Positions 9,313-30,003 of a stretch of 45,827 nt of DNA are shown here, piece after piece. The position numbers and the translations under genes were made by a program. Each line of letters begins with the position of its first letter. Position 1 is the stretch's first letter. The notes beneath the pieces were generated by a model that saw only the letters and a list, made by a program, of their open reading frames with translations, made no database searches and was not told the DNA's origin. The stretch comes from Aliidiomarina sanyensis. GTDB taxonomy: Bacteria; Pseudomonadota; Gammaproteobacteria; Enterobacterales; Alteromonadaceae. The stretch covers positions 1 to 45,827 of the forward strand of contig NZ_PIPM01000016.1 of assembly GCF_003987175.1 (NCBI RefSeq), written 5' to 3'.

Positions 9313-9316
9313 AAGG

Positions 9317-12136: not shown

Positions 12137-12588
12137 GTGATGACCTACACCTGATAAACGACCGCGTTGACGCCCTGCTGAACAACCTCAGCGCTGGCGA
12201 GCGCAAGCGTTTAACCCGCGACATTGCGCGCACTATGCGTGGCAGCCAAGCCCGGCGCATCAGGGAGAACCGCAACCCAGACGGTACGCCCCACGCCCCA
12301 CGCAAACCACAAGAGCAACCCACGGGGCGCAGACGCCGAGGCAGCTTGCGTATGTTCAGGCGCATTCACCGCACCCAGTTTATGCGGCCCAGCTCAAACC
12401 CGAACGAGGCGGGCGTAGGCTTTCGCGGTTTAGTAAGCCGCATAGCGCGGGAGCACCATTACGGCCTGCGCGCCCGGGTGAATAAAAATACTCGAGTACA
12501 GATGGAAGAACGCCAGTTACTTGGCTTTACAAAGCAAGACTTGCAGACCGTAGAAGACTTGATGATTCAGCACTTAGCCAAGCGCTAA
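12133..12588 (+). CDS. S: Tail completion / virion morphogenesis protein (P2 gpS)
   Basis: 151 aa from ATG 12133, which overlaps the R stop (ATGA). Features of the phage virion morphogenesis family are the ERKRLTRDIARTMRGSQARRI helix, the very basic middle with RRRRGSLRMFRRI, and REHHYGLR ... ERQLLGFT towards the end. Last gene of the capsid/lysis operon; a leftward moron follows convergently. Confidence 0.92.
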   Translation: MSDDLHLINDRVDALLNNLSAGERKRLTRDIARTMRGSQARRIRENRNPDGTPHAPRKPQEQPTGRRRRGSLRMFRRIHRTQFMRPSSNPNEAGVGFRGLVSRIAREHHYGLRARVNKNTRVQMEERQLLGFTKQDLQTVEDLMIQHLAKR

Positions 12589-12626
12589 GTGCCGCTCTTT
12601 AAAATTACAGAAGAACTAATATGGGA

Positions 12627-13172
12627 CTATTTGTGTTCCTGAATGAACTGCTCTGCAGATACCAGCGCCTCATTATACAGACGAACTCTTTCTTCATATT
12701 CATCAGTGTTTCTGAACGCAACAGGATTAAGCATCATGCTAACCAGCGTTCCTGGCTGAGAAGAAAAACCTTCAAACACAAGCTGAATATCACTTGGTTG
12801 ACGCCAGTCATCCATAAGCTTTTGGCTTTGCTGGCGAAAGCTTTGCGCAAAGGCTCCCCACTGACCAGCTGCATAATCATCATCAGGACTTGCTTGCCAC
12901 CAAGCCTCTTTTGCGGTCTCAATCTGCGCACGAAGGCGCTTAACCTCTTCAATCCAACCTTCATAGTACGCCGCTTTTTCTGCGAGAAGCTGCGCCCGCT
13001 CATCCTCGACTACATCTTCCGACTGATCGCCCTGGCCGACAGCTGGCACCGGCTCACTAACTTCAACAGCAACTTGCTCATAGCTTTCTTTTGGCTGCTC
13101 ATCTTCAACGAACGCACCAATAACAGCCAGCCCGAACAGGACACCCAGAGTTATATAAATTCCTTTTTTCAT
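12627..13172 (-). CDS. Moron: signal-anchored periplasmic protein of unknown function
   Basis: 181 aa from ATG 13172 (GAGGTG five bases upstream; a GTG at 13178 is possible). The N-terminal hydrophobic segment (KKGIYITLGVLFGLAVIGAFV) is followed by an acidic linker and a helical domain rich in Glu, Gln and Trp. It reads against the late operon with its own candidate promoter (13203-13231), so it is probably made in the lysogen. Anchored phage proteins of this kind often block superinfection or alter the envelope. That role is a guess from context; no family was recognised. Confidence 0.75.
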   Translation of the reverse strand: MKKGIYITLGVLFGLAVIGAFVEDEQPKESYEQVAVEVSEPVPAVGQGDQSEDVVEDERAQLLAEKAAYYEGWIEEVKRLRAQIETAKEAWWQASPDDDYAAGQWGAFAQSFRQQSQKLMDDWRQPSDIQLVFEGFSSQPGTLVSMMLNPVAFRNTDEYEERVRLYNEALVSAEQFIQEHK

Positions 13173-13202
13173 GATCACCTCACGCAGTTAATTGAGCAGG
13201 TA

Positions 13203-13231
13203 TTTTTAGCACTTTTATAGGTTCTTTACAA
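13203..13231 (-). promoter_or_regulatory. Candidate sigma-70 promoter of the moron
   Basis: On the minus strand TTGTAA, a 17-base spacer and TAAAAA, in an AT-rich stretch about 30-60 bases before the moron start. Found by eye; sequence only. Confidence 0.5.
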
Positions 13232-13385
13232 ACACTTGCCAGCCGTCATAGGTGTGCGTAGTCTTTTGCCCGCGCGCAATAACTAACACCAGCCGGTTGG
13301 ACTAACTACGGAGTATTACTATGGAATGCAATAAAATCGGCTTGGGTGGCTTTACCGCCCGAATAAAATGTGCAAGACTATTCGC

Positions 13386-13432
13386 AGCTGGATTAGACAC
13401 CCAGCTAACGAGTTGGCGGATTAGACACCCGC
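13386..13432 (+). other. Twin hairpins with identical loops in a leader region
   Basis: AGCTGG (13386-13391) / CCAGCT (13401-13406) and GCGG (13416-13419) / CCGC (13429-13432) both present the same nine-base loop ATTAGACAC. The stems differ while the loop is kept, which points to a selected RNA motif. The surrounding stretch 13232-13626 holds no convincing gene, although a frame is open from 13321. It leads into the small-gene block at 13627. Possible roles are a protein-binding RNA (the loop edge carries GGA), an antisense target or a leader. Confidence 0.5.
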
Positions 13433-13626
13433 AAGCTTTGAACCACAAGGGACACGAAAGACTTCATGCGTTAAACCCAGCACCCCGCTGGGCCATTCAA
13501 CACGAACCGTTGACTGGGGGCATGGGTCGGGAGCCAAAGAAAACGCCCCCATCTGTGCATTCCCTTGTGGTGCACTGTCTTGCGGCTACCCGATCCGCCA
13601 TTTCCAAACACAAGGAGATGGCAACA

Positions 13627-13800
13627 ATGGTTTATACCTTTATCGTGGCTCATAGCAGCCAAAAACTGGCTCAGCTTAAAAAGCTGCGCACCGTTTCAAC
13701 CTTCGCCCACACTGAAGAGCAAGCCCGCAAAAACTTCCCTGGCATGCCACTGGTATTGCAGGCCCGCACACACGCTCGCCGTGAAGGGGGTGTTGCATGA
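13627..13800 (+). CDS. Small phage protein, perhaps Icd/Ash-like
   Basis: 57 aa from ATG 13627, chosen because AAGGAG stands nine bases upstream. The frame is open back to 13321, but that part overlies a structured leader. The layout TFIVAHSS ... RTVSTFAHTEEQARKNFPG ... LQART is reminiscent of short 'host cell division inhibitor Icd-like' prophage proteins. The likeness is weak and from memory. First of seven overlapping small genes. Confidence 0.6.
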   Translation: MVYTFIVAHSSQKLAQLKKLRTVSTFAHTEEQARKNFPGMPLVLQARTHARREGGVA

Positions 13801-14087
13801 GCCAGTCCAAAATACACCCACGCACTGGCATCGCGTTTTTCACCCGCCACGACCTGATGACCATTGAAAACCTGCGGCTGAGAGGCAAGGTGGAAAGCCA
13901 GCGTGCACAAATGAACGAGCTGCGCCGGCAGCTCACGGAAAGCGAAGAACGCAACGCACACAGCAACGCCATGTTGCGCCGCGCCACACGCCTGCTTGAT
14001 GAAGTTGTGTACTCAAAGCAGCAAAGCAGCGAGCTGATTGAAGAGGTTGAGCAGCTACGCCAAATCAGCGCGGGAGGTGACCTATGA
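13797..14087 (+). CDS. Small coiled-coil phage protein, unknown
   Basis: 96 aa, starting by ATGA overlap with the previous gene. Nearly all helical; residues about 25-90 look like a coiled coil (MNELRRQLTESEERN, SELIEEVEQLRQ). No membrane segment or catalytic motif. Part of the tightly packed block 13627-15715 between late operons. Function unknown. Confidence 0.75.
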   Translation: MSQSKIHPRTGIAFFTRHDLMTIENLRLRGKVESQRAQMNELRRQLTESEERNAHSNAMLRRATRLLDEVVYSKQQSSELIEEVEQLRQISAGGDL

Positions 14088-14374
14088 ACCACGCCACCCA
14101 AGCCGTGTTTGAAAGCACCTTAGCAGTAGAGCGAACGGGCGGGCTTTCGTTTGAAAGCGCCGCGCTGGGCGTGGTTAGCACCGAGCAGGCCGCGCGTAAG
14201 CTTGAAGAGTTTTGGCGTAACTGCAGCAATGAAATGGCCAGTGACCCATGCTTTGAGCCATGCCACGGCATGGTGAGCTGGATGCACGCCGCATTGCACC
14301 ACTGGTTAAACAGCGTCGACTTCATTGCGGTAGTTGAAAAGCTGAGCGAAGCGCGGGAGGTAGCCCATGCCTAA
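14084..14374 (+). CDS. Small phage protein, unknown
   Basis: 96 aa, ATGA overlap with the previous gene. Helical, with a cysteine/histidine-containing centre (EFWRNCSNEMASDPCFEPCHG) that could hold a metal. No family was recognised. Overlaps the next gene by 8 bases, so it is translated as part of the same unit. Confidence 0.72.
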   Translation: MNHATQAVFESTLAVERTGGLSFESAALGVVSTEQAARKLEEFWRNCSNEMASDPCFEPCHGMVSWMHAALHHWLNSVDFIAVVEKLSEAREVAHA

Positions 14375-14705
14375 GCGCTTAACATCCATTAATAACCTTG
14401 CTGGCAATATCAACGTGCACAGCCTGGGCCAGCGCGTTCGTATCGACATTGGCCCTCTCAACATTGAGGTACCACAGCGCAGCATTCGCCTAACCCGCGA
14501 CCTTGCGCCCGGCTGCCCAGGTGTTGAGTTCGGCATGCTGGAAGTTATGGCGGATTCACATTGCCGTAACTGTGGGGGTCCTGTTCGGATTGCGCTGGGG
14601 TTAAACCCGAAGCAATTGAAGCGCCTACGCAACGAACTGCCCCATAGTGAGTATGCGGACAACCGCTTTCTGTCACCAGTTGAGCGGGGTGCGTTATGTG
14701 TATAG
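14367..14705 (+). CDS. Small phage protein with CxxC pair, unknown
   Basis: 112 aa; start ATG 14367 after GGGAGGTAGCCC. A beta-rich first half (INVHSLGQRVRIDIGPLNIEV) is followed by a lone SHCRNCGG pair near residue 66 and a basic helix. One CxxC suggests metal binding only if it dimerises or uses C-terminal Cys. Function unknown; overlaps the next gene. Confidence 0.72.
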   Translation: MPKRLTSINNLAGNINVHSLGQRVRIDIGPLNIEVPQRSIRLTRDLAPGCPGVEFGMLEVMADSHCRNCGGPVRIALGLNPKQLKRLRNELPHSEYADNRFLSPVERGALCV

Positions 14706-14998
14706 CAGAACACCCAAAAGGCTGGGCGGTTCACCTGGAACAGGGCGCCGCAATCATGGTGCTAAAAGGGTTCAACGTGATCACCATTCACGCGCACCCG
14801 CTGACGGTTGAGACCACCCGGGAACAGTGCCTGATTAAGGCGCACCCAGAGGCAGCGCCAGAGTCGTACCGGCTCTTTGTTACGACGCCGAACGAGAAGC
14901 ACGTTTATATTCACGTTTTAATTAACCGCGAAGCCGCCCTTTGGCTGGCTGAGAACTGCGGCATTAAAAACAACCTGGTTAACGAGGTGAAGCCATGA
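14696..14998 (+). CDS. Small phage protein, unknown
   Basis: 100 aa, overlapping the previous gene by 10 bases and the next by 4 (ATGA). Predicted mixed alpha/beta fold; no motif recognised. Its tight coupling on both sides argues that it is a real gene. Confidence 0.72.
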   Translation: MCIAEHPKGWAVHLEQGAAIMVLKGFNVITIHAHPLTVETTREQCLIKAHPEAAPESYRLFVTTPNEKHVYIHVLINREAALWLAENCGIKNNLVNEVKP

Positions 14999-15501
14999 GC
15001 CAGCCAGCATTAGCACTACACGATAGCAAGCCCGCGAACTGCTGGGCATTAACCCTGACCGATGGTGAAGTCACGCAAACCCTGATTGTGCGCGCACCCA
15101 ACGAAGGCCGCGCCCGTGAATGGGCCATGGAGCGAACCAAGCTACCCCGTGAGCACTGTATTATTAACAGCTGCAGGCCGGTTGAGCACTGGGTTCACCG
15201 CCGTGATGCTATGGTTACTATGGTAGACCCGCGCCTGAACCACCTACGCGCAATTGCGGAGCCGCACGGTTTGCAGGTTTACCAGTTTTTGGGTGAAGCC
15301 ATGCCCCGCGCCGTTGTGATTGCCAGCCCTGAAGACCACAAAGCACTTCAGGACGGCATTCAGTGGACTGCAGAACGCTGCCAGCGGCTTGAGCGCGCAT
15401 TGAACGATTGTGTTTCTGTCATGACTAATGGCGACACAGAATCACTTGACCACGCCACCGCTTTGCGTGTGGCCACCATTCTTCTGAAAGGAGATAAGTA
15501 A
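14995..15501 (+). CDS. Phage protein, unknown
   Basis: 168 aa, the largest of the small-gene block. The N-terminal beta-rich segment (CWALTLTDGEVTQTLIVRAPNEGRA) resembles a small strand-helix fold, and the C-terminal third is helical. ATGA overlap with the previous gene; GGAGATAAGTA near its end is the ribosome site of the next gene. Function unknown. Confidence 0.75.
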   Translation: MSQPALALHDSKPANCWALTLTDGEVTQTLIVRAPNEGRAREWAMERTKLPREHCIINSCRPVEHWVHRRDAMVTMVDPRLNHLRAIAEPHGLQVYQFLGEAMPRAVVIASPEDHKALQDGIQWTAERCQRLERALNDCVSVMTNGDTESLDHATALRVATILLKGDK

Positions 15502-15502
15502 T

Positions 15503-15715
15503 ATGGCCACTCCAATTTTGCTAGACGAGTACCGAGACCTACCCACCAAGCAACAAGCAAGCTTGATGATTGATGAATCAGTCACCGCAATGGAATGCCT
15601 GACAGAGCTTTTGGAGGCCGCCGGCAGCGAGAAGGTGGAAGCGGATAAGGTGGCTAAGTTAATGAAGCTACACGTCAATAACATTCAAGCCTGGTCTATC
15701 GAAGCCAGCGAATAA
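15503..15715 (+). CDS. Small phage protein, unknown
   Basis: 70 aa, acidic and helical, start ATG 15503 after AAAGGAGATAAGTAAT. Last gene of the block; the terminator at 15731-15758 follows. No family recognised. Confidence 0.72.
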   Translation: MATPILLDEYRDLPTKQQASLMIDESVTAMECLTELLEAAGSEKVEADKVAKLMKLHVNNIQAWSIEASE

Positions 15716-15730
15716 AAACCACCACACCAA

Positions 15731-15758
15731 AGCCCAGCCACAGCGCTGGGCTTTTTTT
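15731..15758 (+). terminator. Rho-independent terminator of the small-gene block
   Basis: AGCCCAGC (15731-15738) and GCTGGGCT (15745-15752) form an 8-bp stem followed by seven T. It insulates the small-gene block from the V operon, whose late promoter starts 13 bases later. Confidence 0.9.
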
Positions 15759-15770
15759 ATCCAGAACAAA

Positions 15771-15843
15771 CCCTTTACGTTGTCAGCATACTCCCTACAA
15801 CCGCACCAGATAGCCCGCCCCGCTGCAACGCTGCAAACTTGGC
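15771..15843 (+). promoter_or_regulatory. Late promoter repeat B (Ogr-type site) before V
   Basis: The 35-bp repeat core (15771-15805) carries the dyad GTTGT (15779-15783), 13 bases, ACAAC (15797-15801). The copy here and the one before FI stay almost identical for about 73 bases, through to the presumed start region GCTGCAAACTTGG. V begins at 15847. Confidence 0.85.
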
Positions 15844-15846
15844 GGC

Positions 15847-16503
15847 ATGAGAGAGAAGATTGCAGAGCTAAACCGCCGCATAGACAACATGATTCGCATT
15901 GGCGTTGTTGAAGAAGCCAAAGCGGGCAAGGTTCGCGTGCGCACCGGCAAAATACTAACCGACTGGCGGCCATACCTGGTTCAGCGCGCAGGCGCGTCGA
16001 AGCGCAGCTGGCGTATTAGCGTTGGTGAGCAGGTCGTGCTGCTGTCACTGTGTGGCGACTTGGCCAACTGCTATGTACTGCCTGCAATTAACTCTAACGA
16101 GAACCCAGAGCAAGATGACCACGAAAACCGGGACCACATTACCTACCCTGACGGCGCGGTGATTGAGTACGACCCAGAAACCAGCTTTCTGAAAGTGACT
16201 GGCGTGAAGAACGCAGAAGTTCAAGCCAGTGAACGGGTTAAGGTCGACTGCCCTGAAACGGAAACCACCGGCAACTTAACGGTAGGCGGCAACGCGATTG
16301 TGAAAGGTACGACTGAACTGCAGGGCGCAGCCACCATGAAAGACACCGCCACCGTTACTGGCGCGCTAGCTGCCAACGGAGGCGCAGCGATTAAAAGTGG
16401 CGCAAGCGTTGATGGCGGCCTTAAGATTGATGGCGATGACTATTCAGAGCACCAACACGCAGGTGTTACTTCGGGCTCTAGCACTACTGGACCGGTGGCG
16501 TAA
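15847..16503 (+). CDS. V: Baseplate spike protein (P2 gpV)
   Basis: 218 aa. N-terminal OB-like domain (IGVVEEAKAGKVRVRTG), middle linker, and a C-terminal triple-strand beta-helix of short repeats (LTVGGNAIVKG, ELQGAATMKDTATVTG) ending in HQHAG, the histidine cluster that binds the tip metal in P2 V. It is the membrane-piercing needle of the tail. First gene of the baseplate operon. Confidence 0.94.
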   Translation: MREKIAELNRRIDNMIRIGVVEEAKAGKVRVRTGKILTDWRPYLVQRAGASKRSWRISVGEQVVLLSLCGDLANCYVLPAINSNENPEQDDHENRDHITYPDGAVIEYDPETSFLKVTGVKNAEVQASERVKVDCPETETTGNLTVGGNAIVKGTTELQGAATMKDTATVTGALAANGGAAIKSGASVDGGLKIDGDDYSEHQHAGVTSGSSTTGPVA

Positions 16504-16850
16504 TGGCATGGCATGGAATGAACCGGAGCACCGGCAAAGCGATTGATGAAACGGATCACATTCGACAGTCAGTGCGCGACATATTAACCACGCCAATTGG
16601 TAGCCGCGTCATGCGCAGAGACTACGGCAGCTTGCTTTTTGAATTGATAGACCAGCCAGTTAACCGGGCGAATCGGTTGCGACTGATGGCGGCCACGGTA
16701 AGCGCACTGACCCAGTGGGAGCCGCGCATAAATGTTACCAGGTTGGACCCATACCACGACCAGAGCGGCCGCGTAATTATTTCAATGGAGGCTGAGCGCG
16801 TGGACACCGGCGAAATGATAACGATTGCAGGCATACAGGTGAACGAATGA
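16503..16850 (+). CDS. W: Baseplate wedge protein (P2 gpW, gp25-like)
   Basis: 115 aa, lysozyme-like gp25 fold without catalysis. Family signs are HIRQSVRDILTTPIGSRVMRRDYGS and FELIDQPVN. It connects sheath and baseplate. It shares a base with the V stop (TAATG) and overlaps J by 4 bases. Confidence 0.95.
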   Translation: MAWHGMNRSTGKAIDETDHIRQSVRDILTTPIGSRVMRRDYGSLLFELIDQPVNRANRLRLMAATVSALTQWEPRINVTRLDPYHDQSGRVIISMEAERVDTGEMITIAGIQVNE

Positions 16851-17779
16851 CAACATACCGCTTGATTGACCTTTCAAAGGTGCCAGTGCCTGACATTATT
16901 GAAGTGCCAGACTTCGAAGAGAAGTACCAGGCGCTTAAGTCCATGCTGATTAACCTTGATCCTGATTATGCGCAATCACTTAGCTTGGAATCTGACCCTG
17001 CAGCGCGACTACTGCAGGTGTTTGCATACCGTGAAATGTACCTGACGGCCCGCATTAACGACGCTACGCGCGCCAATATACTGGCGAGCGCCACTGGCCG
17101 CGACCTTGATGCGCTGGCAAGCCGCTATAACATCGAGCGCTTAACCATTCAGCCTGCGAACCCTGACGCCAACCCGCCAGAACCTGCCGCAATGGAAGAC
17201 GATGAAGCGCTAAGACGCCGTGTACAAATGGCCTTTGACGGCTTAAACACCGCGGGCAGCATCGACGGTTATATTTTCCACGCACTGGGCGCTAACGGCT
17301 TGGTGCGTGACGCCCTGGCTGCCAGCCCACAGCCGACGGAAATAGAACTGACTATTTTAAGCAACGAGGGCAACGGCCATTCCAGTGCCGAGCTTATCGA
17401 ATCTGTGCGCGCCCACTTTGGCATTAGCGCTGATGGCACCCAGCAGCTAGGCACCTCAAAGATTCGACCACAAGGCGACCGCGTTACAGTGCAAAGCGCA
17501 TCCATTATTAGCTACCAGGTGGAAGCCACGATATACCTGCAGCAAGGGCCTGACGCCAGCGTAATTAGACAGCAAGCAATCGCTGCAGCGCAGAAGTACG
17601 CAGATGAGCAACATCGCTTAGGCGCCGACATAACGCGCAGTGGATTGCACAGAGCGCTTCACCAGCCCGGCGTTGATAATGTTGAGCTACACCAGCCTGA
17701 TGGAAATATCAGCGTAAGCCCAACACAGGCAGCCTACTGTACGTCAATCGACGTCAATAGCGAGGTAAGCAATGGCTAA
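16847..17779 (+). CDS. J: Baseplate assembly protein (P2 gpJ)
   Basis: 310 aa, normal for gpJ. Signs are VPDIIEVPDFEEKYQALK at the N-terminus, SLESDPAARLLQVFAYREM and the long C-terminal domain. It forms the baseplate wedge with W and I. ATGA overlap with W and an 8-base overlap with I keep the stoichiometry coupled. Confidence 0.95.
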   Translation: MTTYRLIDLSKVPVPDIIEVPDFEEKYQALKSMLINLDPDYAQSLSLESDPAARLLQVFAYREMYLTARINDATRANILASATGRDLDALASRYNIERLTIQPANPDANPPEPAAMEDDEALRRRVQMAFDGLNTAGSIDGYIFHALGANGLVRDALAASPQPTEIELTILSNEGNGHSSAELIESVRAHFGISADGTQQLGTSKIRPQGDRVTVQSASIISYQVEATIYLQQGPDASVIRQQAIAAAQKYADEQHRLGADITRSGLHRALHQPGVDNVELHQPDGNISVSPTQAAYCTSIDVNSEVSNG

Positions 17780-18515
17780 GTCATTATTACCCCCCAACGC
17801 CAGCGCACTGGAAAAAGACCTTGAACGCATTATTGAAAGCAGCACCTCGCTGCCCGTACATATACGCGACCTATGGAACCCGGACACCTGCCCCGCGGAA
17901 CTTCTTCCTTGGCTTGCATGGGCCTACTCAGTGGACAGCTGGAGCGACCACTGGGGCGAGCACACCAAGCGCCGCGTAGTTAAGAACGCATACGAGGTGC
18001 ACAGATTCAAAGCCACACCCTTTGCGGTGCAGCATGCGCTAGATGGGCTTGGCATTAGCACTAATGTTACCGAGTGGTGGGAGCAAAACGGCAGCGGCAC
18101 ACCAGGAACAATGACCGTTATTGCTTTACTGAACGAAAACCTGACCGGAGAAGATGACGGCCTTATCACGGCTGAAATGCTAAAGCTTGTCACGGAAACC
18201 GTTAACACAGCGAAGCGCGGCAGCATCCACTTTAATGTTCAGCTGGGTATTGCGTTAGATGAAGAGTTTGCGCTAGCGGCTGGCTGCAGCCCTTCTTATG
18301 GCGTTTTTGACACAGGCTTTAATGAACAAGGCGTGGTACCAGACGAGGCAGAAGCTGACCTTGGCACATACAACGCTACCCACCGCATTGACTGCCGTGA
18401 GCATGACGCGATTTTTAATGGCGTACTGCCTGAAGAATTTGAGATTGAAGGGCGGCTGGCCGGTGGCTCACACCAGCTGGTTATATCTGATTATTCACTA
18501 ATGGGAGTGGCCTAA
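17772..18515 (+). CDS. I: Tail protein I (P2 gpI)
   Basis: 247 aa. Recognised by the LWNPDTCPAELLPWLAWAYSVD motif and the following HRFKATPFAVQHAL segment, conserved in phage tail protein I. The C-terminal ~80 residues are longer than in P2 I and carry a phage-specific extension. Attaches the fibres to the baseplate; the fibre genes follow directly. Confidence 0.93.
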   Translation: MAKSLLPPNASALEKDLERIIESSTSLPVHIRDLWNPDTCPAELLPWLAWAYSVDSWSDHWGEHTKRRVVKNAYEVHRFKATPFAVQHALDGLGISTNVTEWWEQNGSGTPGTMTVIALLNENLTGEDDGLITAEMLKLVTETVNTAKRGSIHFNVQLGIALDEEFALAAGCSPSYGVFDTGFNEQGVVPDEAEADLGTYNATHRIDCREHDAIFNGVLPEEFEIEGRLAGGSHQLVISDYSLMGVA

Positions 18516-19054
18516 TGGCACTGAAACTTCAGTTCACCCAGCAGGGCCTTGCCGCGTGCCTGGACGCACAAAGCAAAGGCCTGAAAGCTGAGATTACACA
18601 CATGGCGTTTGGTGACGCAGCTTACAACCCAAGCCAGAACCAGACGCAGCTTAACAATGAGCGTGAGCGCATCGAGATTAATGACTGGCAAGACGGCGGC
18701 CAGAACATGCGCATGGCTGGCGTATTCGATGGCGAGCTGGAATACGCCATTCGAGAGATTGGAATTTTCCTTTCTGACGGCACATTGCTTGGTGTGTACT
18801 CACAGTCTGGCAAAACGCTGGGCTACCGCACGCCCGCTGTTAAGGTCATTCAGTGGTTCACGCTTAACTTAAGCGCACTACCAACCAACAGCGTTACCGT
18901 TGTGGTGGGCGCAGAAAACCTGAACTTGGTACTGGATGCTGAGTTTATCGCTGCAGCGGCATCGTTCCTGAACACTGGCGCTGCAATCATCAAAAACGCT
19001 CACTGGAATATGCAGTTAAGTGAGCGCATTCGCACTATGGAGGGCTCGCTGTGA
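18515..19054 (+). CDS. Tail fibre protein, N-terminal attachment type (DUF3751-like)
   Basis: 179 aa. It matches the baseplate-proximal domain seen at the N-terminus of P2 H (KLQFTQQGLAACLDAQSKG ... ITHMAFGD, IREIGIFLSDGTLLGVYSQ). Here it stands alone, so the single H fibre of P2 is split: this protein likely anchors and the next carries the receptor-binding domain. GTGA overlap with the next gene. Confidence 0.9.
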   Translation: MALKLQFTQQGLAACLDAQSKGLKAEITHMAFGDAAYNPSQNQTQLNNERERIEINDWQDGGQNMRMAGVFDGELEYAIREIGIFLSDGTLLGVYSQSGKTLGYRTPAVKVIQWFTLNLSALPTNSVTVVVGAENLNLVLDAEFIAAAASFLNTGAAIIKNAHWNMQLSERIRTMEGSL

Positions 19055-20262
19055 GCACTATCGCTGAACAAATTGAAAACCTAAAGTCCGCATCGGTCGA
19101 ACAAACCCAAGCATCCCAGCAGCTAGCTCAGGAAGTAGCCGGCAAAATGGGCGACATTGACCAGAAAGTTAACCAGTCCATTCAGCAGGTCGAGCAGACC
19201 TACGATGAAAAGGCGAGCGGCTTAACTATTATCGCTACAGATGGCTACAAAAAAGCCGTTGAAAGCGCGAGTGGCGGCAAGAACACAGTTGTTTATGATG
19301 CGCAGGGCAACCCTAACGTCATGGTGGTTGTGCCTCGCTTCAACGTAGAAGACCTTGGGCTTACTGAATTGGACCTTGGCAGCGGCACTCACCCAGCTTT
19401 TCAAACCAACGGTGCGCCCCGCTCTGAAATTCTGGTTGGCAAGTTCTTGGCGTCCAACGCTTCTGGCGGCACTGCAGTGGTTGGCGGCGTTCAGCCTCGC
19501 GTGAGCGTGAACTTTGATACAGCCAAAAACTTCTGTACGCAGAAGGGTGATAACTGGCACTTAATGAGCATCCACGAGTGGGCAGCTATCGCGCTTTGGT
19601 CGCTAGCTAACGGCACGGTGCCGCGCGGCAACACCAACCACGGCCGAAGCCATGTGAACTACTGGGAAACAGCACCGCGCGCTGACGGCGGCATTCCTGG
19701 TGACAGTGATGGCACAGGACGCACTGACACAGGTAAAGGACCAGCTGCCTGGGGTCATGACCATACCGACTTTGGCATTCAAGACCTGGTTGGAAACGTG
19801 TGGGAATGGATCGATCAGATGAAGCTGCAGGACGGCCGAATCATTACAACGCTGGACAATAACCCATCAGTTGCAGAGGCTAACTGGACGCCTCACCAGG
19901 CGTATTATGACTCAACATCCGAGACTGGCGGCAACCCTATTTTGAACTCCACAGTAACCAACCGCATGGGTGATCTCGGGGATGATGCGAACTCTGGAAA
20001 CAGCAACTTTATTGACTTCCGGAGCATGTCACAAGACCCAAGTTACACGCCTATTCAGTTGCTGCGCCGCTTGCTGCTGGAAACGGCGACAGACCAGACA
20101 GTTGGTGGTCGACTATACACGCGGAACTATGGCGAGCGTCTCCCGCTACGTGGCGGCGATTGGGGCAGCGGCTCGAGTGCCGGGCTGGGGGCTTTGCGCC
20201 TCGGCATCTCCCGTTCTCTTTCGCACAGCAGCATCGGGTTTCGCCCCGCTTTCTTTGTGTAA
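19051..20262 (+). CDS. DGR-diversified tail adhesin with C-type-lectin/FGE-type fold
   Basis: 403 aa, GTG start overlapping the preceding stop. Residues about 1-60 form a coiled coil (trimerisation). From about 150 onwards is a formylglycine-generating-enzyme-like C-type-lectin fold, with NVWEWID at 249-255 and the ending LRGGDWGSGSS ... IGFRPAFFV. Residues about 363-400 are the variable repeat VR. This fold displays variable residues on a rigid surface in other DGR phages. As the target of the RT-TR system it is the likely receptor-binding tip. Last gene before the DGR accessory genes. Confidence 0.93.
   Translation: MSTIAEQIENLKSASVEQTQASQQLAQEVAGKMGDIDQKVNQSIQQVEQTYDEKASGLTIIATDGYKKAVESASGGKNTVVYDAQGNPNVMVVVPRFNVEDLGLTELDLGSGTHPAFQTNGAPRSEILVGKFLASNASGGTAVVGGVQPRVSVNFDTAKNFCTQKGDNWHLMSIHEWAAIALWSLANGTVPRGNTNHGRSHVNYWETAPRADGGIPGDSDGTGRTDTGKGPAAWGHDHTDFGIQDLVGNVWEWIDQMKLQDGRIITTLDNNPSVAEANWTPHQAYYDSTSETGGNPILNSTVTNRMGDLGDDANSGNSNFIDFRSMSQDPSYTPIQLLRRLLLETATDQTVGGRLYTRNYGERLPLRGGDWGSGSSAGLGALRLGISRSLSHSSIGFRPAFFV
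20136..20250 (+). repeat. DGR variable repeat (VR)
   Basis: 115 bp aligned to TR 20692-20806 without gaps. 14 mismatches, all at positions where TR has A (14 of 23 TR adenines changed, none of the other 92 bases). Ten AAY (Asn) codons in TR are all changed: D, G, S, S, R, G, I, L, H, S. The 3' GC-rich end (GGTTTCGCCCCGCT) is unmutated, as for an initiation-of-homing site. The gene stop lies 12 bases past VR. Confidence 0.97.
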
Positions 20263-20282
20263 CTGAGCATTGTGTTTTGTCT

Positions 20283-20305
20283 GCCGCGCGGTAGCGCGGC
20301 CTTTT
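20283..20305 (+). other. DGR downstream hairpin/cruciform with GGTA loop (also terminator-like)
   Basis: GCCGCGC (20283-20289), loop GGTA, GCGCGGC (20294-20300), then C and five T. DGRs are known to have a 7-10 bp GC stem with a GRNA tetraloop shortly after VR that boosts homing. GGTA fits GRNA and the position, 33 bases past VR, fits. The T-run means it could also end fibre transcription. Confidence 0.75.
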
Positions 20306-20324
20306 TAAAAAGGTGTAGTAAAGG

Positions 20325-20690
20325 ATGTCGCAGTCATTAAGCATTGAAGAGAAATGCCTTGAAATGATTAAGTACGGATACGTAGTTCTTAAGCAGTTCC
20401 CGCGTTATGAGAAGCATGGACTGGCCGCAGAGATTCGCGCAACGATGTGGCGAACTCACCGCCTAATTGTGACCGCCCTTAAGCGGTACCATAAAAAGAC
20501 CACGCTGACCGACCTTGACGTTGAGCTAACGCTTCTGAAGCGACAAGCGCGCCTTTCAAAAGAGCTTGGCCACATTGACAACCGGCGCTACCAAATCTGG
20601 ATCACGATGATGGTAGAAATCGGCAAGATGCTGGGCGGCTGGATAAAGCACGTAAACTCAAGCAAGCCAGTTAAGGCTGCAGCATTATGA
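20325..20690 (+). CDS. avd: DGR accessory variability determinant Avd
   Basis: 121 aa, nearly all helical and basic, matching the four-helix-bundle Avd proteins that bind the RT and the TR RNA and are needed for mutagenic cDNA synthesis. Signs are FPRYEKHGLAAEIRATMWR, LTLLKRQARLSKELG and RRYQIWITMMVEIGKMLGGW. Between VR and TR, the usual place. ATG 20325 after AGGTGTAGTAAAGG. Its stop overlaps an ATG (ATGA) opening the TR/RT frame. Confidence 0.92.
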   Translation: MSQSLSIEEKCLEMIKYGYVVLKQFPRYEKHGLAAEIRATMWRTHRLIVTALKRYHKKTTLTDLDVELTLLKRQARLSKELGHIDNRRYQIWITMMVEIGKMLGGWIKHVNSSKPVKAAAL

Positions 20691-20691
20691 T

Positions 20692-20806
20692 GCGTCTCCC
20701 GCTACGTGGCGGCAATTGGAACAACGGCTCGAATGCCGGGCTGGGGGCTTTGAACCTCAACAACTCCCGTTCTAATTCGAACAGCAACATCGGGTTTCGC
20801 CCCGCT
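20692..20806 (+). repeat. DGR template repeat (TR)
   Basis: 115 bp, starting 2 bases after the avd stop. Donor of VR sequence through an RNA intermediate. Adenines sit mainly in AAY codons at surface positions, giving in principle about 10^11 to 10^12 protein variants. It is an open frame continuous with the RT gene. Confidence 0.97.
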
Positions 20807-20836
20807 CTTGATGACACGGCCAGAAACACCTGCCTC

Positions 20837-21961
20837 ATGGGGCAGTGTCAGTGCCATTTTCAAAAGGATGCGGCAGCCTCAGCAAATGCTGAAAAACAGA
20901 TTAAGCCGCTGGATGCGTCCAGTGGCTGCCTTTACGAGCAGTTAATTCAGTTTGATGCCTTACTTACAGCAGCGTACCAATGCAGAAAAGGGAAGGCTCA
21001 CAAGGCGTCTTCTCTGAAGTTCTTCAATAACCTTGAAGAAAACATCATAGACCTGCAGAACGAGCTGACGTGGGGCATGTATCACGCATCACCTTACCAC
21101 CAGTTCTATGTATTCGAGCCGAAGCGGCGCCTTATATCCGCGCCAAACTTCCGCGACCGAGTGGTTCACCGGGCAATTTACAACCTGATAGAGCCGCTAT
21201 TTGATAAACGCTTTGAATACGACTCTTACGCCTGCAGAAACAACAAGGGCACCCATAAGGGCGCAGAACGAGCGCAATTATTCATTCGCCAGGTTGAGCG
21301 CGGCCACGGGAAAGCCTATGCACTAAAGGCAGATATAAGCCGGTACTTCTCAAGCATTCGCCATGACGTTCTAAAGCAGCTGGTTAGCAGCAAGCTTAAG
21401 TGTCAGCGCATGGTTTCGCTGCTTGAATACGTTATTGACACCAGCCCAACAGAAACGCCCGGCGTTGGCATTCCGCTTGGGAACTTAACCAGCCAGCTAT
21501 TTGCGAACGTGTATCTGCATGAGCTAGACCGCTACGCAAAGCACACCCTGCGCGCAAAGCGATACGTTCGTTACATGGATGATTTTGTTTTCATTCACCA
21601 CGACAAGCAGCAGCTGCATGCGTGGCGTGTAGAAGTGGAGCGATTCCTTAATAGTGAGCTTGGCCTCTGCACCAACCAAAAAACGCAAGTGTTCCCCATT
21701 GGAGTGGGTAAAGGGCGAGCGCTGGACTTCCTTGGGTACCGGATTTACTCAACACACCGCCTACTAAGAAAGTGCAGTGTGAAGCGAATGAAGACGAACA
21801 TGAAGAAGTACCGCAAGAAGTACGCTGCAGGAAAAATGGACATTAAGACTATCCAACAAAAGGTTCAATCATGGCTTGGCCACGCCAGTCACGCGAACAC
21901 CTTTAATTTGCGCACCGCGCTATTCACAAAACCGTTCAGGAGAACTAAACATGAGCTTTAG
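20837..21961 (+). CDS. brt: DGR reverse transcriptase
   Basis: 374 aa from ATG 20837. The frame is open from ATG 20687 (424 aa), which would translate the TR; the conserved domain starts only later (YEQLIQFDALLTAAYQCRKGKA), so the shorter form is preferred. RT motifs: FRDRVVHRAIYN, KADISRYFSSI (first Asp), IPLGNLTSQLFANVYLHELD (the SQ motif typical of DGR enzymes), RYMDDFVF (catalytic YMDD at 246-249) and LGYRIYS. It copies TR RNA into adenine-mutated cDNA. No maturase or intron is present, so it is not a group II intron RT. Confidence 0.96.
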   Translation: MGQCQCHFQKDAAASANAEKQIKPLDASSGCLYEQLIQFDALLTAAYQCRKGKAHKASSLKFFNNLEENIIDLQNELTWGMYHASPYHQFYVFEPKRRLISAPNFRDRVVHRAIYNLIEPLFDKRFEYDSYACRNNKGTHKGAERAQLFIRQVERGHGKAYALKADISRYFSSIRHDVLKQLVSSKLKCQRMVSLLEYVIDTSPTETPGVGIPLGNLTSQLFANVYLHELDRYAKHTLRAKRYVRYMDDFVFIHHDKQQLHAWRVEVERFLNSELGLCTNQKTQVFPIGVGKGRALDFLGYRIYSTHRLLRKCSVKRMKTNMKKYRKKYAAGKMDIKTIQQKVQSWLGHASHANTFNLRTALFTKPFRRTKHEL

Positions 21962-22226
21962 CTATATCTACAAAGGTGTGACGCACACCGACCACAGCGT
22001 TGATTACATGCAAAACCTTGGCATGAACCAGGAGCAAATTGAATCGGTGCAAAGCCAGTACAATTTTGAGCGCGAACAGGTTCTTTGTAAGCGTCAAAAA
22101 GCGTACCGCGAAGAGTCTGACCCGCTATACATGGAGTGGCAATTTGACCAAACCAGCGAGGCAGAACAGGCGTGGCGCTCGAAGGTCGAAGAAATTAAAG
22201 CGCGATTCCCTCTATTTGAAGACTAA
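21951..22226 (+). CDS. Small phage protein, possible fibre assembly factor
   Basis: 91 aa from ATG 21951 after AGGAGAACTAAAC, overlapping the RT end by 11 bases. The C-terminal half (KRQKAYREESDPLYMEWQF, EAEQAWRSKVEEIKARFP) resembles short proteins common near tail-fibre loci in phages. In P2 this slot is held by fibre assembly gene G, so a chaperone role is plausible but not shown. Confidence 0.75.
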   Translation: MSFSYIYKGVTHTDHSVDYMQNLGMNQEQIESVQSQYNFEREQVLCKRQKAYREESDPLYMEWQFDQTSEAEQAWRSKVEEIKARFPLFED

Positions 22227-22235
22227 ACCAACCCA

Positions 22236-22258
22236 ACAGGGGCGCTCGCCGCCCCTGT
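22236..22258 (+). terminator. Hairpin at end of fibre/DGR operon
   Basis: ACAGGGGCG (22236-22244), loop CTCGC, CGCCCCTGT (22250-22258): a perfect 9-bp GC-rich stem with no T-run. It lies between the small protein stop and late promoter repeat C. It may slow or protect the 3' end rather than act as a full terminator. Confidence 0.5.
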
Positions 22259-22262
22259 CACG

Positions 22263-22335
22263 CCCTTTACGTTGTCAGCATACTCCCTACAACCGCACCA
22301 GATAGCCCGCCCCGCAACAACGCTGCAAACTTGGC
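22263..22335 (+). promoter_or_regulatory. Late promoter repeat C (Ogr-type site) before FI
   Basis: 35-bp core (22263-22297) with the dyad GTTGT (22271-22275), 13 bases, ACAAC (22289-22293), identical to copies A and B; the match to B extends to about 22335. Drives the tail operon, whose first gene FI starts at 22381. Confidence 0.85.
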
Positions 22336-22380
22336 CTTGCATGTAACGAACTGTTCCACCAACCGGACCGGAGAAACCCT

Positions 22381-23550
22381 ATGGAATACCATCACGGCGT
22401 GCGAGTTGTCGAAGTAAACGAAGGCACCCGCACCATTCGCAGCGTAGCGACGTCTATCATTGGCTTTGTGGCCACTGCTAGCGATGCAGACGCAGAGAAG
22501 TTCCCACTGAACACGCCGGTGCTTTTAACAAACCCGCAAGCCGCGATTGGCAAAGCCGGTACCGAAGGCACGTTAAGCAAAACCCTGCGCGCAATCACTT
22601 CGCAAACCAACCCCATGGTGGTGGTTGTTCGCGTTGAAGAAGGCGCTGACGAATCAGAAACCACCTCAAATGTTATCGGTACCGTTGACGAAACAGGCAA
22701 GTACACCGGCCTGCAAGCGTTACTGGTAGCAGAAACAAAGCTTGGCGTTAAACCTCGCATCATCGGCGCGCCTGGGCTTGATGCCTTGGCTGTGGCGAGT
22801 GAGTTAGCGGCGATTGCAGCAAAGCTACGCGCGTTCGGCTACGTGTACGCAAACGACTGCCAAACCAAAGAAGAAGTTGTGACCTACCGCGAAAACTTCT
22901 CAGCGCGTGAACTCATGGTTATCTGGCCAGACTTCACCGCATGGGATGTTAACGCCAACGAAAGCAACGCCCTCTGGGCTTCGGCTGTAGCCCTTGGCTT
23001 GCGGGCTAAAATCGACCGCGAAACTGGCTGGCATAAAACCCTTTCGAACGTAGGTGTTAACGGCGTTGACGGCATTACGAAAGACATTTTCTTTGACCTG
23101 CAGGACCCTGCAACTGATGCCGGCTACCTCAATAGCAACGATGTAACCACGCTGATTCGCTCAAATGGCTTTCGCTTCTGGGGCTCTCGCACTACATCAG
23201 ATGACCCACTCTTTGCGTTTGAGAACTACACCCGCACCGCTCAAGTGCTTGCAGACACGATTGCAGAAGCGCACATGTGGGCGGTTGATAAGCCAATTAC
23301 CCCAACGCTGGTTAAAGACATCGTTGAAGGTATCAACGCCAAGTTCCGCGAGCTGCGTTCGCTGGGTTATATCGTGAACGGTGAAGCCTGGTACAACGAA
23401 GAGCTGAACGACCAGGACACGCTGAAGGCAGGCAAGCTGTACATCGACTACGACTACACGCCTGTGCCGCCGCTTGAAGACCTGGTATTCCAGCAGCGGA
23501 TTACAGACCGCTACTTAATCGACTTTGCTGCAGCTGTTGCCGCGGCTTAA
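22381..23550 (+). CDS. FI: Tail sheath protein (P2 gpFI)
   Basis: 389 aa contractile sheath. Signs are the N-terminal HHGVRVVEVNEGTRTI, FPLNTPVLLTNPQ, and the C-terminal domain with NGFRFWGSRT. Length is as in P2 FI. ATG 22381 after CCGGAGAAACCCT. First and most abundant gene of the tail operon. Confidence 0.96.
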   Translation: MEYHHGVRVVEVNEGTRTIRSVATSIIGFVATASDADAEKFPLNTPVLLTNPQAAIGKAGTEGTLSKTLRAITSQTNPMVVVVRVEEGADESETTSNVIGTVDETGKYTGLQALLVAETKLGVKPRIIGAPGLDALAVASELAAIAAKLRAFGYVYANDCQTKEEVVTYRENFSARELMVIWPDFTAWDVNANESNALWASAVALGLRAKIDRETGWHKTLSNVGVNGVDGITKDIFFDLQDPATDAGYLNSNDVTTLIRSNGFRFWGSRTTSDDPLFAFENYTRTAQVLADTIAEAHMWAVDKPITPTLVKDIVEGINAKFRELRSLGYIVNGEAWYNEELNDQDTLKAGKLYIDYDYTPVPPLEDLVFQQRITDRYLIDFAAAVAAA

Positions 23551-23628
23551 TAGTTAAACGCGCAGCGGTGCGTAGCCGCTGCCCTACTCACTGGCTGCAA
23601 GCAGGCGCTGCAGCGTAAGGGGAAGAAC

Positions 23629-24144
23629 ATGGCATTACCAAGAAAGCTTAAATACATGAACCTGTTTTTCAACGGGGACAACTGGGTTGGCCAAGCGGAG
23701 CAATTCACGCCCGCAAGCCTGAGCCGAAAAATGGAAGCGTATCGCGGTGGCGGCATGCCTGGTACCGCAAAAACGGACATGGGCTTTGACGATGACGCTT
23801 TAGACACCAGCTGCATTTTGGGTGGTTACGAAGCTGACATTCTGCGCAACAGCGCGAGCGCTACGCATGACGCCGTAATGCTGCGCTTTGCTGGTTCATT
23901 CCAGCAGGACGATACGGGCGAAGTTACTGCTGTGGAGATTGTGCAGCGTGGCCGCATTCAGGAAATCGACCGTGGCGACTACAAGACCGGTGAAGAAAGC
24001 AATACCACGGTTAACTTTGTGAACACCTACTACAAAGAAGTGGTGAACGGTGAAACCGTAGTTGAAATCGACACGGTGGCCATGGTGCACATTGTGAATG
24101 GCGTTGACATGCTCGAAGAGCACCGCCGCGCTATTGGCCTGTAA
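23629..24144 (+). CDS. FII: Major tail tube protein (P2 gpFII)
   Basis: 171 aa. Signs are LPRKLKYMNLFFNGDNWVGQ, the GGGMPGTAKTDMGFD segment and the acidic VEIDTVAMVHIVNGVDMLEEHR end, all of the tube family. Forms the inner tube. ATG 23629 after AAGGGGAAGAAC. Confidence 0.95.
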   Translation: MALPRKLKYMNLFFNGDNWVGQAEQFTPASLSRKMEAYRGGGMPGTAKTDMGFDDDALDTSCILGGYEADILRNSASATHDAVMLRFAGSFQQDDTGEVTAVEIVQRGRIQEIDRGDYKTGEESNTTVNFVNTYYKEVVNGETVVEIDTVAMVHIVNGVDMLEEHRRAIGL

Positions 24145-24170
24145 CTAACCAACCCAACTAAACCAACCAA

Positions 24171-24193
24171 AGCCCCGGGCACGGGGCTTTTTT
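24171..24193 (+). terminator. Terminator after FII
   Basis: AGCCCCG (24171-24177), loop GGCA, CGGGGCT (24182-24188) and a T-run. Between FII and E, it would reduce transcription of E/E' and the tape measure relative to the abundant sheath and tube genes. Confidence 0.85.
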
Positions 24194-24208
24194 AAGCGGA
24201 GAGCAAGC

Positions 24209-24544
24209 ATGTCTGACAAGGCAAAAGAACCAACACAACAGCCCCAGCAGCAGTTTGAGAAAGTGACCTTAGATACCCCGGTAAAGCGTGGTGAAGAGGT
24301 CATTAAGGTGATCACGATTCGTAAGCCGCGTTCAGGTGAGCTGCGTGGCGTTGCGCTCACCGATGTTCTGCAAATGGACGTGAACGCATTAAACAAAGTG
24401 CTGCCTCGAATCACGCAGCCGTCACTTAGTGAAATGGAAGTGATGAACCTAGACCCGGCCGACCTGGTGCAAATCGGGAGTGCGCTATCTGTTTTTTTGC
24501 TCAGCCGGAAGATGCGGGGCGAGATGGAGAGCCCAGAAAGCTAG
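24209..24544 (+). CDS. E: Tail assembly chaperone (P2 gpE), unshifted form
   Basis: 111 aa. ATG 24209 after GCGGAGAGCAAGC. Helical, acidic C-terminal end. The T7-G run at 24492-24499 is the slip site for the longer E+E' form. Family by position (FII-E-T), length and the slip site. Confidence 0.9.
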   Translation: MSDKAKEPTQQPQQQFEKVTLDTPVKRGEEVIKVITIRKPRSGELRGVALTDVLQMDVNALNKVLPRITQPSLSEMEVMNLDPADLVQIGSALSVFLLSRKMRGEMESPES

Positions 24545-24690
24545 TTAACTCAGTTGATGACGCAATGGCAGACATTGCGTGCGTGTTCCACTGGGCGCCG
24601 GAAGATATGGCGCCCATGGAGCTAGAAGAACTAGCCGGATGGCGGGAAAAAGCCATTGACCGCCTGAAGGCCCTGAACCGCCGAGAGTAA
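24209..24690 (+). CDS. E+E': E+E' fusion by -1 ribosomal frameshift
   Basis: A T_TTT_TTG slip site (24493-24499) falls in codons 95-97 of E. A -1 shift there continues 63 codons to the TAA at 24690, giving about 160 aa with the helical end VFHWAPEDMAPMELEELAGW. P2 makes E+E' with the same T7G. The extension has no start of its own and stops 2 bases before the tape-measure start, so frameshifting is the natural reading. Coordinates include both frames. Confidence 0.88.
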
Positions 24691-24692
24691 TA

Positions 24693-27600
24693 ATGTCAGG
24701 ACAACTACGCCTTCAGGTGCTGCTTTCTGCAGTAGACAAGATAACCAAGCCGCTACGCTCGACTGGTGAGGCTGCCAGCAGAGCTTCTCAAAATATAAGA
24801 GCTACGCAAGGTCGCATTCGCGAACTAAACGACCAGGCCAAGCGCGTTGATGGCTTCCGCCAAACGCAAAACTCCCTGCAAACCACAAACCGAGAGTTGA
24901 ACAGTGCCCAGCAGCGCGCTCAGCAGCTTTCACGTGAATTCAGAAACGCACAAAACCCGACAAAAGCGATGGCGCGCGAAATGAAGAGCGCCCAGGCAGA
25001 CGTTCGCCGTCTGCGTGACCAGAAAGACTCGCTGACGAGAACTGCGCGCGAGCAACGCAACGCGCTGCAGCAAAGCGGTGTAAACACCCGCAACCTTGCG
25101 CAAGAGAGCCGCAACCTTCGCCAGCAAACTGACCAGGCAACACAGGCGCTTTCCAGACAAAAGCGCGAGCTACAGCAGGTAAACGAGCAGACCCGCAGGC
25201 TTTCTCAAGCGCGGCAGGCTTATGACCAGACCATGCAGTTCCGGGGGCAGCTTGCGGGCGTTGGTGCTCGCTCTGCAGCTGGCGGCTCTGCGGCGCTATA
25301 TGCCGGCAGTAGAGCCATGGCCCCAGGCGCTGATTTTGACGCGACCATGAGCCGAGTGCAGGCTTTGACGCGTTTAGAAAAAGATTCTGCTGAGCTGGCC
25401 GCTATCAGGGCGCAGGCAAGGGAGTTAGGGGCCACCACCAGCTTTTCAGCAACAGAGGTCGGTGAAGGTCAGGGCTTTCTGGCCATGGCTGGTTTCGATC
25501 CTAAAGCGATACAAGATGCTATGCCCGCAATGCTCGCGCTATCCAGGGCGGGTGACCTTGCGCTAGGGCAAACGGCGGATATTTCATCCAATATACTTTC
25601 AGCCTTCGGTATGGCGCCTGCTGAGATGAATCGGCTTGCCGACGTTCTTACTGCGACAGCAACGCGAGCGAACGTAGATCTGAATATGCTTGGTGAAACG
25701 ATGAAATACATGGCTCCTAATGCGCGGGAGCTGGGTATCAGCGTGGAGGAATCGGCGGCCATGGCTGGCTTGCTAGGGAATATTGGTATTCAGGGTAGCC
25801 AGGCGGGTACTACGCTCAGGGAAATATTCAATCGACTGGTAAGCCAAACAGGGCCCGCAGCGGCTGCAATGGATTCGCTAGGGCTCAGCACAAAAGATGC
25901 TGAAGGCAACATGCGGGCTATGCCGGCTATTCTGCAGGACGTCATGGACGCCACCAAAGAAATGGGAAATGCAGAGCGGGCGGAGGTATTGGCGCAGATA
26001 TTCGGATCCCGAGCCGGCGCGGGTATATCCGAGTTGGTTAAGCAGCAAGGGGAAGGTGCGATTGAAGAGTTCGTTCGCATACTCGAAAATTCTGCTGGTG
26101 AAGCCATGCGAGTTTCCAATGTAATGGCTGACAACGCCAAGGGCGACATGCAATCCCTAAGCTCTGCATGGCAAGATGTTGGCATTCAACTATTCGAAAC
26201 CAATGACACGGGAATCCGAGAGCTGATCCAGAATATAACCGAAGTGGTTCGCTCCGTTGGCTCATGGATGAAGGAAAACCCTGAGCTGGTTCGAACTATT
26301 ACCATGGTTGCCGGTGCCACTGCCGCATTGGCCGCTGTAGGCGGCACGCTGGCCTTAACGATTGCTGGCCTGCTTGGTCCCTTCGCTATGATGCGATATG
26401 CCACCACCGTGCTGGGTATAAAGCTATTGCCCATGCTGGGGGCTGTGTTTAAAGGGTTGACTGCAATTACCCTGAAGTTTGGCGCCGCGCTGATGGCCAC
26501 CCCGATTGGCTGGGTAATAGCGGGCATTGCTGGAATTGTCGCGGCCGTGATTCTGGTGCGCAAATACTGGGAACCGCTGACAGCGTTCTTTAAAGGCGTT
26601 GGCCGCGGAATAGTTGACGGACTTTCACCAGTGTTCGATGCAATACGCGCAATGGCGAGCAGCTTTAAAGGCGTGTTCGCGCCAATCATGCCAGCGTTAA
26701 GCCCTGTCATTGATGTGTTTAAAGGGCTTGGCTCAGTTATTAAGTCAGTGGCCGGCTGGTTCTCGGGGCTGTTAACGCCTGTGGAGTCCGGATCTGATTC
26801 TTTGCAAAAAGCAGGCTCTGCAGGTGAAGCGTTTGGCCGCGTTCTGGCGGCTATCATTAAGCCAGCTATTTACCTGGTAACCGCACCGTTCAGAATGTTG
26901 GGCGGGTTGGTTAAAGGCGCCATGTCTATTATGGACCGCTTTGGAGTGACGCTGAGCGACCTTTTCAAATGGTCGCCACTTGGCTTGATGGTTCGCGCCT
27001 TTGGTGGTGCGGTCGACTGGTTAAAAGGCGTAGACTGGCGGGGCGCAGCAAGTCGCAGTTGGGATGTGATGAAAACCATTTACCGATGGTCACCGCTGGG
27101 CTTGATGACCCGAGGATTCTCGGCGGCTTCCGAATGGCTTGGTCAGATTGATTGGGCGGGTAGAGCTTCGCAAGCATGGGATTTAATGAAAACCGTATTC
27201 AAATGGTCGCCACTGGGCTTGGTTGTTCAAGGGTTTACTGCGGTGCTTGATTGGATCCGAGAGGTTGACTGGCACGCGGCTGCAGTTGAAACGTGGGAGC
27301 TGATGAAAACCATATTCAAGTGGTCACCCCTTGGCTTGATTATGCAAGGCTGGCAGTCGACCTTTCAGTTCTTTGGTAGCTTGCCAGAGCGGTTTAATGG
27401 CTTTGGCGCTGAGATACTGAACGGCCTTATGGGCGGTATAACGGGCAAGCTGGCTGAGGTGCGCGACCGCGTTACCGGAGCCGCTGAATCCGTTGCAGGC
27501 TGGTTTAAAGAAAAGCTTGGCATTAACTCACCAAGCAAGGTGTTTCAGCAGTATGGTGATGACACCATGAATGGCTTGGCCATCGGTCTTGGTGACAATG

Positions 27601-28109: not shown

Positions 28110-28115
28110 TTGCGC

Positions 28116-29928: not shown

Positions 29929-29939
29929 ATAAATCACCG

Positions 29940-29968: not shown

Positions 29969-30003
29969 AGCTGTACTTATTTAACTTGCACAATGATACA
30001 GCC

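Follow-up and report, generated by a model that had tools for sequence, protein, structure and literature searches.

The 45,827-nucleotide (nt) stretch of Aliidiomarina sanyensis DNA analysed here, referred to below as the window, carries at the fibre locus of a prophage an antireceptor gene ending in a variable repeat (VR), followed by a hairpin, the avd gene, a template repeat (TR) and a reverse transcriptase (RT) gene (Table 1). Judging from the sequence, we interpret this array as a diversity-generating retroelement (DGR) of the BPP-1 type, with a probability of about 0.97. An earlier note on this DNA had listed the VR, avd, the TR and an RT with a YMDD motif in that order. The order stands: the target, Avd and RT reading frames are open, and YMDD is present in the RT translation. 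One point needs correcting: the TR is no free spacer between avd and the RT gene but lies inside the RT open reading frame (ORF).

The target protein combines a predicted long N-terminal helix, an FGE-sulfatase/C-type-lectin-like domain and the C-terminal VR. Residues 61-402 match residues 8-384 of the chain of TaqVP (5vf4) with a profile E-value of 4.3e-79, and a Foldseek comparison of the predicted model of the target with TaqVP gives 4.3e-18. This homology is what identifies the VR as the C-terminal end of a protein with a C-type-lectin fold; over the VR, the model itself is of low confidence. Because of the low predicted local distance difference test scores (mean 62.5; 25-34 in the VR blocks), the model was retained only for the global match with TaqVP and not for surface mapping. 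TaqVP is a structurally solved DGR protein from a Thermus aquaticus prophage that likewise has a C-terminal VR (PMC6328139; here and below, PMC numbers refer to excerpts of the papers concerned), but it leaves most of the predicted N-terminal helix of our target (residues 2-74) unmatched and comes from a distant host.

The Avd protein is recognized by the bAvd family with 95 bits (cut-off 40) and by NF033474 with 102.2 bits (cut-off 80). In addition to YMDD, the RT contains the sequence LGNLTSQ, a motif specific to DGR RTs. It shows 38.9% identity to Brt of BPP-1 over 78% of the query, and matches the RT of PDB entry 8ub7, which we take to be the BPP-1 complex, with an E-value of 9.5e-59. Matches to defence RTs (PADLOC, best 1.2e-48) are weaker than the DGR assignment (1.5e-165) and were put down to the shared RT domain; the NCBIfam matches that would make the protein a group II intron RT or a defence-associated RT (DRT) fall below their cut-offs, and these identities were rejected as well.

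The VR and TR form a gapless 115-nt repeat of 88% identity, and no other direct repeat family of 20 nt or more was reported between positions 18500 and 22600. The two copies differ at 14 of the 115 positions, and all the mismatches fall on the 23 adenines of the TR (A to G, 9; A to C, 3; A to T, 2), with none on the other 92 positions; each of the 10 AAY codons of the TR is altered in the VR. These counts agree exactly with those of the earlier note. The hypergeometric chance that 14 mismatches would all hit TR adenines is 2.3e-12, a post hoc value uncorrected for the search. No third copy of the TR was found in the host genome (2.59 Mb, 47 contigs), where only the TR and VR are significant among 8 matches at E <= 10, and the best of the remainder has an E-value of 0.26. 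No mismatch is present in the last 19 nt of the TR and VR, where the homology stops; beyond the VR lies the hairpin GCCGCGC-GGTA-GCGCGGC, at a site also listed as a terminator-like stem.

Table 1. Features of the window that are discussed in the text, with the matches or remarks for each
Feature	Coordinates	Strand	Matches and remarks
DGR target antireceptor, 403 aa	19051..20262	+	phrog_2889 5.5e-148; PF03781 4.7e-07
VR (variable repeat)	20136..20250	+	target codons 363-400
Post-VR hairpin/cruciform	20283..20300	+	7-bp GC stem, loop GGTA (fits GRNA), 32 nt after VR
avd, 121 aa	20325..20690	+	PF22296 bAvd 4.6e-27; NF033474 DivGenRetAVD; phrog_3206
DGR reverse transcriptase ORF, 424 aa	20687..21961	+	RVT_1 3.4e-20; phrog_1423 1.5e-165; core from about residue 82
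TR (template repeat)	20692..20806	+	also codons 2-40 of the RT ORF
TR-RT spacer	20807..20929	+	candidate DGR RNA segment; open-frame linker of about 41 codons in this clade
Tail-collar fibre N-terminal protein	18515..19054	+	PF12571 9.2e-10; phrog_3737 tail fibre 1.4e-75
Small protein	21951..22226	+	phrog_5714 1e-28; position of ACA1 gp45 / VHML orf38; travels with the cassette
Prophage, probable extent	1163..35056	.	shared core at the ends; dus/fur spacing; integrase 1337-2407

Alleles of the variable repeat in related phages

The earlier note had proposed comparing the VR in other strains, and a comparison with related phages bears out its prediction. A related locus, L011, aligns with the window over 11257 nt at 93.7% identity and encodes an RT that is 95% identical. 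The VRs of L011 and the window differ at 17 positions, 15 of which are adenines in both TRs; the remaining 2 are exactly the two sites at which the TRs themselves differ, and there the L011 VR matches the L011 TR. A VR that shares the changes of its own TR is what transfer from TR to VR would leave. In the case of L061, the target of which is 94.5% identical to that of the window, 17 of the 18 VR differences fall on adenines of the window TR, which serves as the reference as the L061 contig has no TR. Outside the VR, these two loci differ at 45 of 1085 positions upstream in the gene and at none of 71 positions downstream. Furthermore, ACA1, ACA2 and proACA1-A possess one TR and three VRs, and the pairwise VR differences lie on TR adenines in 18 of 20, 19 of 20 and 11 of 12 cases (48 of 52). 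The differences among natural alleles are accordingly adenine-limited, and the claim that the receptor tip has already been diversified by adenine-mutagenic homing is, as a statement on past activity, well supported by the 14 of 14 mismatches within the window together with L011 and L061. It is therefore very likely that this lineage has undergone such homing.

Across relatives, 66 loci were scanned (L010, in which there is no pair, was left out), and TR/VR pairs were identified in 45 of these, 41 of the pairs being distinct. Over the distinct pairs, 513 of the 531 mismatches lie on TR adenines, a ratio that is biased upward because the pair finder penalises mismatches at other positions. A hairpin with a 4-nt loop follows the VR in 35 of the 41 (GATA in 18, GGTA in 15, GAAA in 2), whereas the stems differ. 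These loops agree with the published GRNA rule for DGR hairpins, in the report of which the VHML hairpin is already listed (PMC3240598).

Under the mechanism that we propose, an RT-Avd complex would copy a transcript containing the TR and its 3' spacer, making errors at adenines. The resulting cDNA would then take the place of the VR, located at the end of the antireceptor gene and 32 nt ahead of the GGTA hairpin that would mark the target. Progeny phages would then differ in binding, because the AAY codons of the TR are proposed to direct the changes to the binding face of the lectin-like domain.

Several observations weigh against this interpretation. One of the 18 VR differences between the window and L061 and 4 of the 52 in the ACA set are at sites other than TR adenines; no hairpin was found after the VR in 6 of the 41 distinct pairs; and the ends of the TR and VR in the window show no difference of the kind that distinguishes the initiation of mutagenic homing sites IMH and IMH* in BPP-1. 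Finally, the predicted structure being poor over the VR, it is from TaqVP that the variable residues are taken to be exposed.

Retention and loss of the cassette

The fate of the cassette was examined in 20 of the 21 loci without a TR/VR pair (L058 was left out). In 10 of these (L070, L072, L073, L080, L083, L084, L086, L087, L089 and L097), the target is followed by a gp45-like gene with no match to avd or the RT; L083 and L084 have the same target C-terminus and may represent one phage. Two more, L065 (6294-6561) and L066 (1200-1460), contain only fragments of the cassette, with a 3' piece of the RT gene retained in L066, and the other 8 end within or soon after the target and are uninformative on loss. 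In L072 (6200-6340), the GGTA hairpin is retained as a scar, joined to sequence resembling the last bases of the RT gene. The breakpoints differ among L065, L066, L070, L072 and L073 (in L070 and L073, they lie after 6230) and are located outside the VR and TR, which argues against collapse of the repeats in assembly. In some of the relatives, all or most of the avd-TR-RT segment has been lost by deletion. Relative to the nearest TR from another phage, the cassette-less loci show from 0 of 8 (L072) and 0 of 12 (L073) up to 34 of 48 (L087) mismatches at non-adenine sites, with distance as a confounder, whereas 23 DGR-bearing loci show 0-2 such mismatches relative to their own TR. A receptor diversified by a DGR can thus apparently outlive the DGR.

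Given that decay occurs within this family (the VHML frame is broken after the TR, the proACA1-A RT is frameshifted and several relatives have lost the cassette altogether), the DGR of the window might be decayed as well, with a VR that was diversified formerly and homing that has since ceased. We consider this unlikely: the ORFs, YMDD, the hairpin and the TR are intact in the window, and the VR has no non-adenine mismatch to its own TR, whereas the cassette-less loci often have more of them (by the distance-confounded comparison with TRs of other phages, in which L072 and L073 have none). The DGR of the window appears to be intact, has acted in the past and may possibly be active at present. 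In kind it is nothing new, as the same cassette occurs in VHML, VP58.5 and ACA1/ACA2. One more P2-like prophage joins the DGR family with it, and the relatives with kept, broken or lost cassettes provide a natural series for asking why phages keep or drop hypervariable receptors.

The template repeat within the reverse transcriptase frame

The RT ORF encloses the TR in the same frame in which the VR is read. It starts with ATGATG, the ATGA overlapping the stop codon of avd, and runs through the TR and the spacer to the RT core. Fused TR-RT frames are present in 30 of the 45 TR/VR loci (the window and near-copies counted); 3 loci run off their contigs, and the 12 without fusion include VHML, with its broken frame, and more distant DGRs such as BPP-1. 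Start codons were surveyed in 27 of the 30 fused loci, leaving out L055 and L056, which are near-copies of L047, and L062, which is on the contig of L011. In all 27, the frame of the TR in the RT is that of the VR in the target, which counts as one event because of the shared origin, and 26 begin with ATGA. There is no ATG, GTG or TTG between the end of the TR and the RT core in 14 of the 27, so that the RT can hardly start after the TR in these loci.

The other 13 loci have such a codon, and in the window it is an ATG at RT residue 51 (position 20837), where the RT could conceivably start, with the open frame through the TR being incidental. This is quite improbable considering the 14 loci without a downstream start and the near-universal ATGA, and also because none of the 26 other loci, including L011 at 95% identity, has an ATG at residue 51 and no Shine-Dalgarno-like stretch, judged by eye, precedes that of the window. 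We favour an RT that would be read from the ATGA overlap straight through the TR, in which case the template and the N-terminus of the enzyme are the same DNA.

For the frame and codon positions, from which L049 and one duplicate were further dropped, the first 85 codons of 25 distinct sequences contain 0 in-frame stops, and each of the other frames has at least one stop in all 25; the fused set having been picked for its open frame, the lack of in-frame stops is partly by construction. Within the spacer, the entropy is highest at third codon positions (0.88, compared to 1.33 in the core), with 0.53 at first (core 0.61) and 0.53 at second positions (core 0.38), and the pooled ratio of nonsynonymous to synonymous differences (pN/pS; 21 pairs, 7 loci) reaches 0.46 for the spacer, against 0.25 for the core. 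The spacer also shares short nucleotide motifs with DGRs that have no fused ORF. This pattern fits, although it does not prove, double use of the spacer as RNA and as coding sequence. RNAalifold of 14 spacer sequences predicts a structure of -8.0 kcal/mol with 15 pairs in short helices, 11 of which have at least one two-sided change, while several are disrupted or fall on gaps in as many as 5 of the sequences; with respect to a conserved RNA fold, we make no strong claim either way. The one Rfam match, TarB, with 21.3 bits against a gathering score of 80 bits, was taken as chance.

On a tree of 34 RTs, the fused state must have changed three times, for instance by being gained once and lost twice; the support for the 24-row group that holds the fused loci (89/75) is not strong. 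In Aeromonas phage phiWae15 (L050 3223-3498), the TR frame is a separate annotated ORF that ends just before the RT start, and in its relative phiARM81mr (L049), the TR frame is fused to the RT.

The layout itself is already known, being in print both for the ACA phages, in which the TR is described as translated into an N-terminal extension of the RT (PMC10612066), and in DiGReF, which defines a group with the TR overlapping the RT ORF (PMC3521204). In the window, the TR overlaps the 5' end of the RT ORF as in DiGReF structural group 3; the excerpt of PMC8144416 contained nothing on a TR inside the RT ORF. What is new here is the extent of this arrangement among the relatives. In this conserved layout, a single segment of DNA acts as the template for mutagenesis and, to go by its open frame, also codes for part of the enzyme. 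Use of the TR as the first 40 RT codons in the frame of the VR could be a fail-safe, a doubtful proposition: a frameshift or stop in the TR would then silence the RT too, and the receptor gene would rarely receive a copy of a defective template. Ribosomes traversing the TR might also set how much of the transcript is free as template. The conserved template-in-enzyme layout and the repeated loss of the cassette merit a specialist look; neither overturns what is known. As for an ordinary duplication of the gene end that has since drifted, a 115-nt repeat of 88% identity is all that recommends it, and its likelihood is practically nil in view of the 0 of 92 non-adenine mismatches, the adjoining genes for Avd and a DGR-type RT and the natural VR alleles that vary at the same adenines.

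Known systems and the prophage context

The Pseudoalteromonas phages ACA1 and ACA2 (Peduoviridae) resemble the window in the order antireceptor-avd-TR-RT-gp45, the P2-like phage type, dusA integration and the description of the TR as the translated RT N-terminus (PMC10612066). Their RT is 66% identical to that of the window over 91% of the query; the cassette is followed by the sheath gene in the window and by HP1-like tail genes in ACA1. The same cassette has thus been reported in P2-like ACA phages, and according to that 2023 paper, no other P2-like phage characterised by then had a DGR (PMC10612066). The Burkholderia P2-like phage KS5, which has an RT, was considered as an earlier case and rejected, its authors arguing that the RT is not Brt-like in action (PMC3091744).

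The Vibrio phages VHML and VP58.5 (Vhmlvirus), with RTs 47.8% and 68.6% identical, respectively, to that of the window over the matched parts, have the same cassette and the same antireceptor family. The annotated gene order of VHML (gpJ, gpI, fibre, target, RT, orf38, sheath, tube) is that of the window. However, the VHML RT frame is broken and the rest of its genome is lambda/N15-like (PMC10612066), whereas the window contains a P2-like prophage in a chromosomal gene. The Bordetella phage BPP-1 shares the order VR-avd-TR-RT, the GRNA hairpin after the VR and adenine-limited differences (17 of 17), but is more distant by its RT and has the TR between annotated genes, outside the RT ORF. Close homologs of the RT are rare in the genomes sampled: at E <= 1e-60, matches come from 3 of the 394 genomes in the order and from 4 of the 369 in the class, the genome of origin counted in each. 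At E <= 1e-10, matches occur in 40 of 195 related genomes, but outside the genome of origin only G163 (68%) is close, the others, among the matches listed, being 25-37% identical.

The P2-like label of the earlier note agrees with the matches to portal, terminase, capsid, head-tail adaptor, baseplate, sheath, tape-measure and gpD-like families, along with an endolysin-named family and a primase. Head, baseplate and contractile-tail genes of the P2 type and an integrase are all present, and this gene content supports a P2-like (Peduoviridae-like) prophage. A megablast search of window positions 14000-30200 against phage records gave no match. Upstream of the target gene, the tail-collar protein probably corresponds to the attachment part of a P2 gpH-like fibre, encoded apart from the part that binds the receptor. 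The small protein downstream of the RT seems to be tied to the antireceptor, because it adjoins the RT here and the target in relatives without a DGR; it also has a weak match to a tail fibre assembly PHROG (2.7e-4).

An 8-bp core, TCTAACAT, is present at both ends of the prophage (1163-1170 and 35049-35056), and the prophage is inserted in the 5' end of a dusA-like dus gene: the aligned dus and fur stretches are separated by about 175 nt in one genome of the same genus and by about 227 nt in another, but by about 34 kb here. With the prophage in place, the host dus gene begins with sequence that the prophage provides (1163-1245), and its first residues are therefore not the ones encoded at the opposite prophage end. 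A near-identical element (73 nt at 97%, 37 nt at 100%) is found at 22261-22335, 15771-15843 and 5843-5879, where it precedes three gene blocks (sheath, gpV-like and scaffold/capsid side). It carries GTTGT...ACAAC arms and may be a shared late promoter, presumably akin to the Ogr-dependent kind of P2.

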